Shown here one piece after another: positions 59,783-63,853 of a DNA stretch of 64,000 nucleotides. The notes beneath the pieces are model-generated. The model saw only the letters and a program-made list of their open reading frames with translations. It was not told where the DNA came from and did no database searches. Source of the DNA: Acidobacteriota bacterium (GTDB taxonomy: Bacteria > Acidobacteriota > Terriglobia > Terriglobales > Acidobacteriaceae); NCBI GenBank assembly GCA_021792135.1, contig JAJYVF010000016.1, forward strand, positions 62,001-126,000, in the 5' to 3' direction. Numbering within the stretch: the first letter of the stretch is position 1; each line of letters starts with the position of its first letter. A program made the translations under genes and the position numbers.

Positions 59783-59861
59783 AGATGGTCGGGGAGAGAG
59801 GATTTGAACCTCCGACCCCCTGGTCCCGAACCAGGTGCTCTACCAGGCTGAGCCACTCCCC
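59783..59861 (-). repeat. left 79-bp direct repeat (att site, tRNA duplicate)
   Basis: Identical base for base to 63775-63853. It starts AGATGGTCGGGG and ends GAGCCACTCCCC. Divergence begins right outside it (TT before and TTT after, versus AA before and GATC after in the right copy), which defines the repeat ends. Confidence 0.95.
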
Positions 59862-59862
59862 T
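59786..59862 (-). tRNA. tRNA-Pro(CGG), att-duplicated copy with acceptor mismatch
   Basis: The minus-strand reading gives D-arm, anticodon loop TTCGGGA (anticodon CGG), T-loop TTCAAAT and encoded CCA. Position 1 is A instead of C, so the first acceptor pair is A-G rather than C-G. The change arises because the direct repeat stops one base short of the tRNA 5' end. Whether this copy is transcribed is unknown, since it lacks the native upstream region. Confidence 0.75.
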
Positions 59863-59880
59863 TTAGAATCAGTCCTTTGC
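59861..59880. repeat. left 20-bp imperfect terminal inverted repeat of island
   Basis: CTTTAGAATCAGTCCTTTGC matches the reverse complement of 63757-63776 at 17 of 20 positions, the first 11 being perfect. It lies immediately inside the left tRNA copy. Possible recombinase arm or core-binding site. Confidence 0.7.
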
Positions 59881-59920
59881 AAAATTTCTCCCGCAATTTG
59901 ACCCCCTGGGGAGGAATTTC

Positions 59921-60166
59921 ATGGCTGGTTTCGCGGACTTCATCAAACACCGCAAATACTTCGTTTGCGTCTCGCCCGCAACCCTCGATTGGTATGAGCA
60001 CTGCTTTCACTGGATACCTGAGAGTCCCTCGCAAGCCGACCTCCAGAACGCCGTGATTGCTAGGGCCTTCTTTGGTAGCGAATACCGTGATGGACTGGTC
60101 ATCAGACGCTGGGATGAGTTTCAACAGTCCGCTCTCGCCCTTGGCCTCAACGCAACGCCCGCATAA
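59921..60166 (+). pseudogene. tyrosine recombinase (integrase), N-terminal stump
   Basis: An 81-residue frame with a strong GGGGAGGAATTTC ribosome site. The segment FADFIKHRKYFVCVSPATLDWYEH and the following ..W.......ADLQNAVI pattern match the N-terminal SAM-like core-binding domain of phage-type tyrosine recombinases (F..F...R....VSP.T...Y...L.WL). From about residue 50 the sequence no longer fits and the R-H-R-Y catalytic domain is absent. Its location 60 bp inside the left att site, reading into the island, is where an integrase gene is expected. A truncated, inactive relic. Confidence 0.65.
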
Positions 60167-60603
60167 GTGGCCGGTCACGATTCGCGGACATCCGGGGCTT
60201 AAGTCGAGACCGTCCCCGGGTTCATCTGTGATCGTTGTCAATAAAACCCCTGCCCCCGGCTCTTGCCTCCTCCACTTGCGTCCGCAAGACGCACAAATCG
60301 GTTTCACGAAGCAGCCTCCACGGTGCTAACCGCCGCAAGGCAGGTCCGAGGAAATGGCGATGCCAGGGCCGCTGACCTGATTGCTGTATGCTTTGGGTTT
60401 TGCCGGGAGAATAGACGAGAGATATTCGCTTGAAATGTGAGCGCAGTCACCATTCGCGAATTTTGGGGCTGACGAAAGTCATGTCTGCGGGAGGCGAGCA
60501 GGCCAGCGGAGTAGGCCGGTTGAGAGGGCAAGTGGAAAACGAGGAACCAAATCGCGGTACAACTGAGCGCCCCCACTGCCGTATTGGGAAGCGGTTAATG
60601 TCC

Positions 60604-60618
60604 TAAACGATTGATTCT
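60604..60618. repeat. 15-bp direct repeat flanking the RM module (left)
   Basis: TAAACGATTGATTCT occurs here and again at 63758-63772, the second copy just inside the right island end. The two copies bracket exactly the RHH, methyltransferase, endonuclease and Vsr genes. Confidence 0.75.
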
Positions 60619-62103: not shown

Positions 62104-63131
62104 TCCTGGTCCGGCACTTCCTCCGGTATCTCTGCTCCTGTCGCGTCGGCTTCGGTGCGTGTTGGTGCGTCCTTCAGCTTGCCTGCGATGCGGCGCTCAA
62201 ATTCCTGCTTGGGCACAGGCTTACCGCCGGTCAGTCCTTCAACCGACCGCTCCAGCGTAGTGAGCCGGACTTCATCAAGCACCATGCGTGAGTGTTTCTC
62301 TCCGGGGACCTCATCGAAGCGCACAATGAACCACGCAATATCAGCATTTGAAATATCCGTTACGCGGTCCATCTCTCCAATGGAATCGAAGAAAGCACGG
62401 TCCACCACGACGACCATCTTCTTGCCCCAGCGCCGAAGGGTAGGAATCTTGATTTGCAGTTGCGGCATCAGGCGCTTGGGTCCACTACTGCGGTAATCGG
62501 GCCTGCGCCTTCCTGCCGGGAAAATGATCCAGTCCACACTGGTGTCCGCATACGCCGTGAATTCCCCGAGCATCGCGTCACCTGAAAAGTACACAGCTTG
62601 AATCTCTACGGCGCACCATTCCATCGGCGCTCCGGGAGCTGTCTTGTTGCTTACGAGAATCATGTCAAACCGGCCAACGTCATCCCCGCCTTCGTTGTCG
62701 GTTGTCGCCCCCGCCTCCAGGAAGCCGACCTCCCCGACAAGACGCGGATTATCGTCCCCGAGAAGCTGGCCGCCCACCCAGCGGAAGATGTCCAGGTTTT
62801 CGCGGAAGCGATAGGGGCAGGTAGCACGTAGTCCGCCCTGTGTGCCTGCGACAATATCAGCAGCAGCCCGGCCCGTTCCTTCGTGCTGGTGGTACGTGTA
62901 GAGCCGCAGTGAACAGACTCCGCCGGGCTTCGTGCAGATTGCGTTTCCCTGCGAGGATTTGAACGGGCACGGTTGCGGGTCACGCTCCCGTTTCTTCTTG
63001 AGTTGCTCGGCACCGAAGTACTGGCGCTCGGTGGGGGTAAGCTCATTCAATCGGTTTCCGAACCACTCACCGATACCAAAGCGAGGTGTAGCGTCCTTGG
63101 GCTTTCGGGCGGCTTTCTTCCGTTCTGCCAT
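62100..63131 (-). CDS. NotI-family type II restriction endonuclease with Cys4 metal site
   Basis: A 343-residue protein resembling NotI in its diagnostic arrangement. Four cysteines (C55 in CPF, C66, C73 in GVC, C105 in CPYR) correspond to the Cys4 iron-binding fold. A PD-(D/E)xK-type active site is formed by D156 (RFDMI) and E176-x-Q178 (AVEIQ), where NotI likewise has Asp then Glu-x-Gln. The N-terminus is basic (ERKKAARKPKDATP). The recognition site may be long and GC-rich as in NotI, but this is inference. It is paired tail-to-tail with the C5 methyltransferase. Confidence 0.8.
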   Translation of the reverse strand: MAERKKAARKPKDATPRFGIGEWFGNRLNELTPTERQYFGAEQLKKKRERDPQPCPFKSSQGNAICTKPGGVCSLRLYTYHQHEGTGRAAADIVAGTQGGLRATCPYRFRENLDIFRWVGGQLLGDDNPRLVGEVGFLEAGATTDNEGGDDVGRFDMILVSNKTAPGAPMEWCAVEIQAVYFSGDAMLGEFTAYADTSVDWIIFPAGRRRPDYRSSGPKRLMPQLQIKIPTLRRWGKKMVVVVDRAFFDSIGEMDRVTDISNADIAWFIVRFDEVPGEKHSRMVLDEVRLTTLERSVEGLTGGKPVPKQEFERRIAGKLKDAPTRTEADATGAEIPEEVPDQD

Positions 63132-63246
63132 CAGGCTCCATTCCGAAGCGCAAACCGTGAGTCCGCGCCGGAGTACAAATCACTCAGGGCATGACGGAAT
63201 TCACATTGCAGCGGTATTCGACTCGAACTGAGAATCCCGATTCATT

Positions 63247-63699
63247 ATGCCACCCATGAAAAAGACCGAGAAAAAGCCAACAGCGAAACGGCTCTCCCGC
63301 AGCGAAAATATGCGGCGCATAACGGGCAAGAACACCACGCCCGAGCTTATCGTGAGACGCCTGCTCTTCCAGCAAGGCTTTCGCTATCGGCTCCACAGGC
63401 CGGAGCTGCCGGGCAAACCGGACATCGTTTTCGTGTCGCGGCGCAAAGTCATCTTCGTTCATGGCTGTTTCTGGCACGCTCACTCTTGCCGCATCGCGCA
63501 CCAACCGAGAACGAATGAGGGCTATTGGTCACCGAAGTTGCGGCGCAACCAGGAGCGGGACACGCGCCACCTTGCCGCCCTGAAAGCCGCCGGGTGGAAG
63601 GTGCTCACAATTTGGGAATGTGAGCTGAAAGACGTGCGGTCGGTGGAACGCAAGCTGCTACGGTTTTTGAACAACACCAAAGAGCGGCGGAAGGGCTAA
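63247..63699 (+). CDS. vsr: very short patch repair (Vsr) endonuclease
   Basis: A 150-residue Vsr nuclease that nicks beside T:G mismatches created when 5-methylcytosine deaminates. Family motifs are RSENMRRITGKNTTPE, catalytic Asp59 in GKPDIVF, and the zinc/catalytic cluster VHGCFWHAHSC with the later WEC (Cys125). Its presence beside a C5 methyltransferase is typical. It diverges from the endonuclease across 115 bp. An alternative start is the ATG 9 bases downstream. Confidence 0.95.
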   Translation: MPPMKKTEKKPTAKRLSRSENMRRITGKNTTPELIVRRLLFQQGFRYRLHRPELPGKPDIVFVSRRKVIFVHGCFWHAHSCRIAHQPRTNEGYWSPKLRRNQERDTRHLAALKAAGWKVLTIWECELKDVRSVERKLLRFLNNTKERRKG

Positions 63700-63756
63700 A
63701 ATTAGTTGTAAAAATTGACCCCCTGTGCGAGACTTTTCAGCACGGGATAATTTCTT

Positions 63757-63776
63757 GTAAACGATTGATTCTAAAG
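63757..63776. repeat. right 20-bp imperfect terminal inverted repeat of island
   Basis: GTAAACGATTGATTCTAAAG is the inverted counterpart (17/20) of 59861-59880. It contains most of the second copy of the 15-bp direct repeat (63758-63772). Confidence 0.7.
63758..63772. repeat. 15-bp direct repeat flanking the RM module (right)
   Basis: TAAACGATTGATTCT, identical and in the same orientation as 60604-60618; lies 58 bp after the vsr stop and 2 bp before the right att repeat. Confidence 0.75.
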
Positions 63777-63853
63777 ATGGTCGGGGAGAGAGGATTTGAA
63801 CCTCCGACCCCCTGGTCCCGAACCAGGTGCTCTACCAGGCTGAGCCACTCCCC
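63775..63853 (-). repeat. right 79-bp direct repeat (att site inside native tRNA-Pro)
   Basis: Identical to 59783-59861. It covers the tRNA from base 2 to CCA plus three further bases. The island lies on the 3' side of this tRNA, as expected for insertion into a tRNA 3' end. Confidence 0.95.

Follow-up and report, generated by a model that had tools for sequence, protein, structure and literature searches.

Two tRNA-Pro(CGG) copies around a NotI-like restriction cassette in an Acidobacteriaceae genome: probable remains of an integrative element

How does a set of restriction genes come to lie between two almost complete copies of one tRNA gene, with only a stump of an integrase beside it? The question is raised by a 64,000-nucleotide stretch of the genome of an Acidobacteriota bacterium of the family Acidobacteriaceae (assembly GCA_021792135.1, contig JAJYVF010000016.1, positions 62,001 to 126,000), which is called here the window. 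An earlier note on this DNA had described near its right edge two identical 79-bp tRNA-Pro copies enclosing an RHH regulator, a C5 methyltransferase, a NotI-like endonuclease and Vsr, and had left open whether this island was stranded, mobilised in trans or a minimal defence cassette. The analysis reported here suggests, with a probability that we put at about 0.87, that the island is a decayed integrative element, which has kept its ends, has lost its integrase and interior, and has a separate restriction cassette inside.

The island and its lost integrase

The repeat search, ARAGORN and Pfam bear out the enclosed arrangement. The two direct repeats of 79 nt are 100% identical and lie 3,992 bp apart from start to start, and tRNA-Pro(CGG) is called twice, both times on the minus strand (Table 1). 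Between the copies come first an 81-aa frame and a small RHH-like gene, then the genes for a C5 methyltransferase and a NotI-family endonuclease, and last that for Vsr. The repeat holds 76 of the 77 tRNA bases plus 3 bases of 3' flank, so that the described duplication of nearly the whole gene stands, with the correction that position 1 differs, being A in the left copy and C in the right one. The genome contains two full matches to the tRNA copy, and the other two matches reach only 79% and 82%.

The right-hand copy is the resident gene, because it has C1 and a 5' flank that aligns with the same-genus genomes G001, G003, G008 and G009 (82–86% over 167–224 bp including the tRNA). The left-hand copy, which has lost base C1, is that of the element: it has no native 5' base or flank and passes directly into an element boundary, TTTAGAATCA, which is common to G009 and to a further relative, G604. 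The C1-G72 pair is important for tRNA-Pro. Since the 1-72 pair of the left copy is A-G, this copy is probably unused as a tRNA and probably serves as an attachment (att) site rather than as a gene. The tRNA 3' end is repeated at both ends of the island and the resident gene is whole, as in an integrative element; the att layout is established.

Table 1. Coordinates of the island's features in the window
Feature	Position	Strand	Basis
Left 79-bp direct repeat	59783..59861		Repeat search
tRNA-Pro copy, element-side, probably an att site; A1 opposite G72	59786..59862	-	ARAGORN; repeat and flank comparison
Left arm of inverted repeat, CTTTAGAATCAGTCCTTTGCAA, abutting the tRNA copy	59861..59882		22 nt, 86% complementary to 63755-63776
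Leader half-site GACCCCCTGG, 10/10 to the antisense anticodon-stem half of tRNA-Pro(CGG)	59900..59909	+	Leader comparison
Integrase stump, 81-aa frame; homologous to about codon 46-47 (60060), then unrelated sequence to the stop	59921..60166	+	DNA and protein match to P0001
Spacer between integrase breakpoint and restriction cassette, ~590 bp	60061..60649		Sequence comparison
Restriction cassette as a unit	60650..63670		80% DNA identity with G003 L297:7088-10106
Small RHH-like protein (longest frame begins at 60669)	60720..60938	+	Pfam RHH_1 E 0.098; G003 homologue
C5-cytosine DNA methyltransferase, 392 aa	60925..62103	+	Pfam DNA_methylase PF00145 E 2.8e-68
NotI-family restriction endonuclease, 343 aa	62100..63131	-	Pfam PF12183 E 1e-74
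Vsr mismatch endonuclease, 150 aa	63247..63699	+	Pfam PF03852 E 3.8e-29; TIGR00632
Right-end half-site GACCCCCTGT, 9/10 to the same tRNA-Pro(CGG) half-site	63718..63727	+	Right-end comparison
Right arm of inverted repeat, TTGTAAACGATTGATTCTAAAG	63755..63776		Repeat search
Right 79-bp direct repeat	63775..63853		Repeat search
tRNA-Pro(CGG), resident; position 1 = C; 3' end abuts island	63778..63854	-	ARAGORN; flank comparison

The 81-aa frame taken alone has no match in Pfam, PADLOC or PHROG. It can be recognised as an integrase N-terminus because positions 59785-60060 are 95% identical over 277 bp to L040:4782-5058 of G009, where the sequence continues into an intact gene. This gene encodes a 277-aa recombinase, P0001, and comes after a tRNA copy that shares both A1 and the TTTAGAATCAG boundary with the left copy of the window. 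At the protein level the stump matches P0001 at 92% over 49 aa, and divergence starts at 60060/60061. The earlier description of a mere integrase stump is thereby confirmed, and the loss of the integrase is established. Among the 46 shared codons, 7 synonymous differences stand against 2 nonsynonymous ones, which suggests that the gene was under selection and probably intact until recently. No intact integrase of this family was found in the genome itself, the next-best match having 31% identity, so the island indeed looks stranded; relatives do have a family integrase. An intact integrase beside an att site is absent from the window and present in G009 and G604.

The restriction genes turned out to have a life of their own. 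Contig C116 of G003 has the same cassette, 80% identical along 3,022 bp and with the order of all four genes unchanged, and no tRNA (ARAGORN), element end or homologue of the window integrase was detected in the 19-kb stretch around it. Since the same cassette occurs there without att sites, cassette and element ends are separable, and the island is a composite of integrase-element ends and an independent cassette; this independence is established, and the idea that the island is a minimal defence cassette in its own right is not supported. Among the relatives' loci compared, nothing matched the spacer before the cassette at the DNA level (E<=0.05) or, convincingly, at the protein level.

The long duplication, which the earlier note had held to be exceptional, is in fact common among relatives of the stump's integrase. 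Fifteen regions were examined for a second tRNA copy. In nine of them, among which we count the window, both ends were found and bear identical repeats, of 79 bp in G604, G577, G598 and the window, 80 in G576, 78 in G585, 92 in G352, 70 in G008 and 61 in G107. Thus seven of the nine (six of the eight relatives) duplicate 78–92 bp of tRNA-Pro (CGG, GGG, TGG) or tRNA-Ser (GGA). The second copy is 87% identical in G742; in G701 the match covers 47 bp only, and for G669, G026, G017 and G009 the stretch read contained no second copy. In G604 an integrase of 90% identity and other cargo are enclosed by two identical tRNA-Pro(CGG) copies of 79 bp, separated by 9.4 kb. This implies that the duplication belongs to the att site and not to the restriction genes, and near-whole tRNA duplication is a trait of the family, not a peculiarity of this island. 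Two tRNA-Pro copies without these restriction genes, which the earlier note would have counted against its view, thus do occur in G604, though perhaps at another chromosomal position. The eight relatives measure 9.2–10.5 kb, except for G352 with 18.7 kb.

On this evidence the following course of events can be proposed. A XerC-like tyrosine recombinase would insert a circle into the tRNA gene, with strand exchange most likely at the anticodon loop, as is reported for tRNA integrases (PMC8371274). The att site of the circle, attP, would bring a nearly complete copy of the target tRNA; the resident tRNA keeps its own 5' flank. A near-complete tRNA in attP would leave two near-full copies after integration, a layout seen in the relatives. 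From the window the integrase beyond codon 46-47 and the interior of the element are missing, a self-contained restriction cassette is present, and both ends are kept. The island probably cannot move on its own; its preserved ends may plausibly be open to an integrase of the same family acting in trans.

The long tRNA duplication is the footprint of a known kind of process. In Streptomyces elements, repeats at tRNA sites range from 2 to 94 nt and reach 93 nt at tRNA-Thr; defective elements without replicase and/or integrase occur there, as does accretion at one tRNA (PMC9513070). Like the cis-mobilizable elements (CIME) of streptococci and the defective actinomycete integrative and conjugative elements (AICE) of Streptomyces, the island has att repeats in a tRNA gene, has kept cargo and has lost its integrase. 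It differs from them in that no conjugation genes were recognised among its frames, and in belonging to an Acidobacteria family of XerC-like recombinases with phage- or satellite-like relatives and a near-whole tRNA in attP. A search of the open-licence literature found nothing on an entire tRNA gene within attP.

Competing explanations

The alternative that survives best is that the island is a trans-mobilised miniature element, comparable to CIME, which spreads through a helper integrase and is no stranded remnant. Both att sites are present and recombination genes are absent, as such an element requires, and both ends are kept and resemble those of the relatives; moreover, integrases of the same kind occur in uncultivated virus contigs, so helpers may exist. 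On the other hand, the island is single-copy in its own genome, where an intact family integrase is also lacking, and a right end in G001 with no recognised left end and no family integrase on its 22-kb contig looks like decay. We consider such spreading unlikely, though it is by far the strongest of the rivals.

A second explanation would have the restriction genes themselves make the 79-bp duplication without an integrase. Nobusato (2000) is said, by a later paper, to have described a restriction-gene insertion with a long target duplication. Insertions of this type, with long target duplications around restriction genes, are reported by Kobayashi and colleagues (PMC3031569), and the island resembles them in having restriction genes inside a long direct repeat and no full integrase. 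It differs in that its repeat is an integrase att site: the left 277 bp are integrase-element sequence, the ends of an integrase element are present, the same kind of duplication surrounds other cargo in the relatives, and the flanks of the G003 cassette share no repeat longer than 11 bp. Integrase-bearing relatives largely refute this explanation, and we regard it as very improbable. An ordinary tandem tRNA duplication into which restriction genes were later inserted, suggested by two near-identical tRNA genes lying close together, is hardly credible, since only 3 flank bases are duplicated, the resident copy keeps its 5' flank, and the other copy lacks its native 5' base and flank and enters the same TTTAGAATCA boundary as in G009 and G604.

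Certain observations do tell against the reading as a decayed integrative element. The empty site with a single tRNA-Pro, for which the earlier note had suggested looking, was not found at this locus among same-genus relatives; in each of the five same-genus relatives where both were found (G002, G003, G005, G008 and G009), ruvB from the left flank is on another contig than the full tRNA-Pro(CGG), so the test by left-flank synteny is not decisive. The element with exactly the window's left end is known only from a 5.9-kb contig of G009, and the integrase deletion is known from the assembly alone, not from sequencing reads. Finally, a stretch to the right of the G003 cassette (L297:10202-10245) looks faintly tRNA-like by eye; as a candidate tRNA it was rejected, since ARAGORN calls none there and tRNA-Pro matches over 9 bases only.

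The integrase family and its target-matched half-sites

The family behind the island is more interesting than the stranded composite itself. At E 1e-45 integrase relatives were found in 28 of 398 genomes of the same bacterial family, at 31 places, and at E 1e-50 in 3 of 396 genomes across the phylum. Among the best 80 loci of the genome collection, at least 11 matches have at least 45% identity, all of them in Granulicella, Edaphobacter, Acidobacteriaceae, Terriglobia, Acidobacteria and Candidatus Sulfotelmatobacter. A scan of virus contigs with a single integrase sequence returned nothing, and an alignment-based scan found relatives of 33–50% identity on contigs of 17–70 kb, in the best 16 of 80 loci. 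P0001 matches only PF00589 in Pfam, with the XerA, XerC and XerD models below their cut-offs; its best solved relative is the XerC-like recombinase 4a8e, and no arm-binding domain was recognised in it. In an alignment of 21 sequences R134, K158, H223, R226, H249 and Y258, which we take to be catalytic residues, are invariant. Several family recombinases contain a C-x3-C-x-H insert (KCGPGCKHP; P0001 residues 78-85) that is cleanly absent from others, possibly a metal-binding loop gained or lost.

The relatives appear to be phage- or satellite-like elements, small and with integrase and replication genes. The cargo scan, which covered selected proteins, gave by Pfam Prim-Pol in G598 and G008, an NrS-1-like protein in G577 and D5/DUF5906 in G604, and by BLAST primase-type homologues in G585, G576 and G352; none was recognised among the proteins scanned of G107 or G701. 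Other, variable cargo includes a type III-like restriction system in G577, GmrSD with an N6 methyltransferase in G585, and a C5 methyltransferase with Vsr, besides a ParA-like protein, in G008. A phage capsid protein is encoded in G598, with homologues in G576, G107 and G701, and a tape-measure-like protein in G598, with homologues in G576, G701, G352 and G107; G598 also has an HNH protein and G107 an S49 protease. Seven of the eight intact relatives, of 9–10.5 kb and with an integrase, thus resemble phage satellites with defence cargo such as the P4-like ones (Rousset 2022, PMC9122126), with a primase-type protein in most and restriction systems or capsid genes in some. Unlike such satellites, the window island has no interior, and the likeness is one of genes, no sequence link to P4 being claimed. 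A search of the open-licence literature found nothing on tRNA-integrase phage satellites of Acidobacteria.

Both arms of these elements carry a piece that matches their target. In the family the leader piece lies shortly before the ribosome-binding site of the integrase, and in the window directly before GGAGG (59910-59914). The pieces, of about 10 bases and corresponding to one half of the anticodon arm, vary with the target: GACCCCCTGG for Pro-CGG in the window, GAGTACTCGC for Pro-GGG and GATACCCTGC for Gln. Of 30 leaders, 18 resemble that of the window in that the integrase begins past the tRNA copy's 5' end; in 10 it lies on the 3' side, and two were unreadable. The leader comparison comprised 29 cases, namely 28 of the 31 family places and the window; L094 (no recognisable tRNA), L099 (no leader) and one place in G565 (no locus) were left out. 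The matches sum to 242 of 290, as against 204.9 ± 5.2 with shuffled target labels, and none of 20,000 shuffles is as high (kinship is not controlled in this or the next three comparisons). Averaged over 11 target classes, the values are 90 vs. 77.5 ± 2.6, again with 0 of 20,000. For a hold-out, 27 loci were examined, of which 6 repeat genomes already used and 9 have no readable arm; L200, which had matched the tRNA core itself, was dropped from the remaining 12. The 11 hold-outs give 82 vs. 69.2 ± 2.7 (0 of 20,000), and ten right ends (nine elements and G001) give 88 vs. 75.3 ± 3.1 (3 of 20,000). The half-site match co-varies with the target tRNA in both arms; this co-variation is established and is a new observation, and no description of target-matched arm sites was found among the titles and abstract openings searched in the open-licence literature.

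In the window, the ends of the island form an inverted repeat of 22 nt (86%) hard against the tRNA copies. The ends also share a 14-nt family motif, ATCAAYAACTTACG, which is matched at 8/14 on the left and 10/14 on the right of the window island and reaches at least 10/14 in eight of nine right ends (expectation 0.35).

What these pieces do is a matter of inference. They may be extra half-sites for recombinase protomers. The integrase might in addition repress itself by binding next to its ribosome-binding site, by analogy with IntS of KplE1, in which the att region overlaps the integrase promoter (PMC2951348). The two systems are alike in that the region controlling the integrase coincides in part with a tRNA att site, so that the integrase could repress itself. 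They differ in their arm sites: IntS has separate arm-type sites bound via its N-terminal domain (PMC2951348), and those of the present family look like repeats of the core half-site. The only Pfam match here is the catalytic one. Tentatively, and at somewhat less than even odds, we propose an undescribed att design: a recombinase whose only Pfam match is catalytic would reuse copies of the core half-site as arm sites, one next to the integrase ribosome-binding site and the other at the opposite end, and retune them upon each switch of tRNA (Pro CGG/GGG/TGG, Ser, Val, Arg, Gln). Such sites would serve both the recombination complex and integrase self-shutoff, and with a whole tRNA captured in attP the host would come to no harm from retargeting. 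More boldly, one can conceive of the leader as an RNA that pairs with the tRNA.

A number of results weaken this picture. Five of the 29 leaders (L080, L085, L087, L088 and L095) fit the arm of another tRNA one base better, and many others tie; the three Ser leaders reach only 7–8 of 10, and the hold-outs L124 and L212 only 6 of 10. The 10 target labels require 10 changes on an integrase tree of 21 rows, where 9 is the minimum and shuffled labels average 14.2; targets therefore go with kinship, and the number of independent switches, about ten, is modest. Of 30 leaders, only 13 match the motif ATCAAYAACTTACG at 10/14 or better, as against 1.2 expected from shuffling, and the leaders of the window, G009 and G604 match it at 8, 7 and 8 of 14.

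In general, the family offers a concrete, testable picture of how directionality and self-regulation could arise in simple XerC-like integrases with no recognised arm-binding domain, and of the way in which elements pass from one tRNA gene to another. Since both ends have matched sites, the target might be predictable from the element sequence alone. On the uncultivated virus contig L206, whose integrase has only 35% identity, half of a tRNA-Thr arm is matched at 10 of 10 bases in the region 65 bases before the start, and at 7 of 10 when 45 bases are considered, hinting that the matched site may be older than the Acidobacteria elements.

The restriction cassette and traces at the tRNA gene

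Within the ends of the element the restriction genes form a separable cassette, with a NotI-family endonuclease and a methyltransferase both in open frames, as in a type II NotI-like system. Judged from these intact frames, the island most likely acts today as a type II restriction system. Pfam supports the methyltransferase, the NotI-like endonuclease and Vsr strongly; the RHH assignment of the earlier note fares less well, the RHH_1 match lying below Pfam's cut-off, and the protein has a homologue of 72% amino acid identity at the same place in the G003 cassette. NotI-family genes occur in 22 of 398 genomes of the same bacterial family, and phmmer found no solved homologue of the NotI-like protein at E<=0.001. 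The sequence GCGGCCGC, the recognition site of NotI, is not avoided in the 64-kb window, where 9 sites were counted vs. ~6 expected from base composition.

The tRNA-Pro(CGG) gene is itself an insertion hot spot. The 79-bp query matches 60 of 61 genomes at E 0.001, other tRNA-Pro genes counted too, and partial tRNA copies of ~39–56 bp, mostly of the 3' part, occur elsewhere in many relatives among the matches listed; they are like the traces left by classical tRNA islands. The solo right end of G001 (L035:9266-9325) is of the island's type and lies at the tRNA-Pro of that genome. In the window, a degenerate tRNA-Pro 3' piece (58168-58201; 34 nt, 85%, E only 0.009-0.03), preceded by a motif-like stretch, lies 1.6 kb to the left of the island, beyond a long open frame (58236-59693), and the region 58160-58201 is possibly an att scar that an older element left at this hot spot. 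On the chromosome side of the left tRNA copy, 59727-59782 (AAATTCCCCTGCAGCAGG ... TTCATTGATT) looks by eye like the worn right end of a family element, which suggests tandem insertions. In G009 a different integrase-like frame (L040:3556-4776) ends just before the same tRNA copy, and two elements may share one tRNA fragment between them there.

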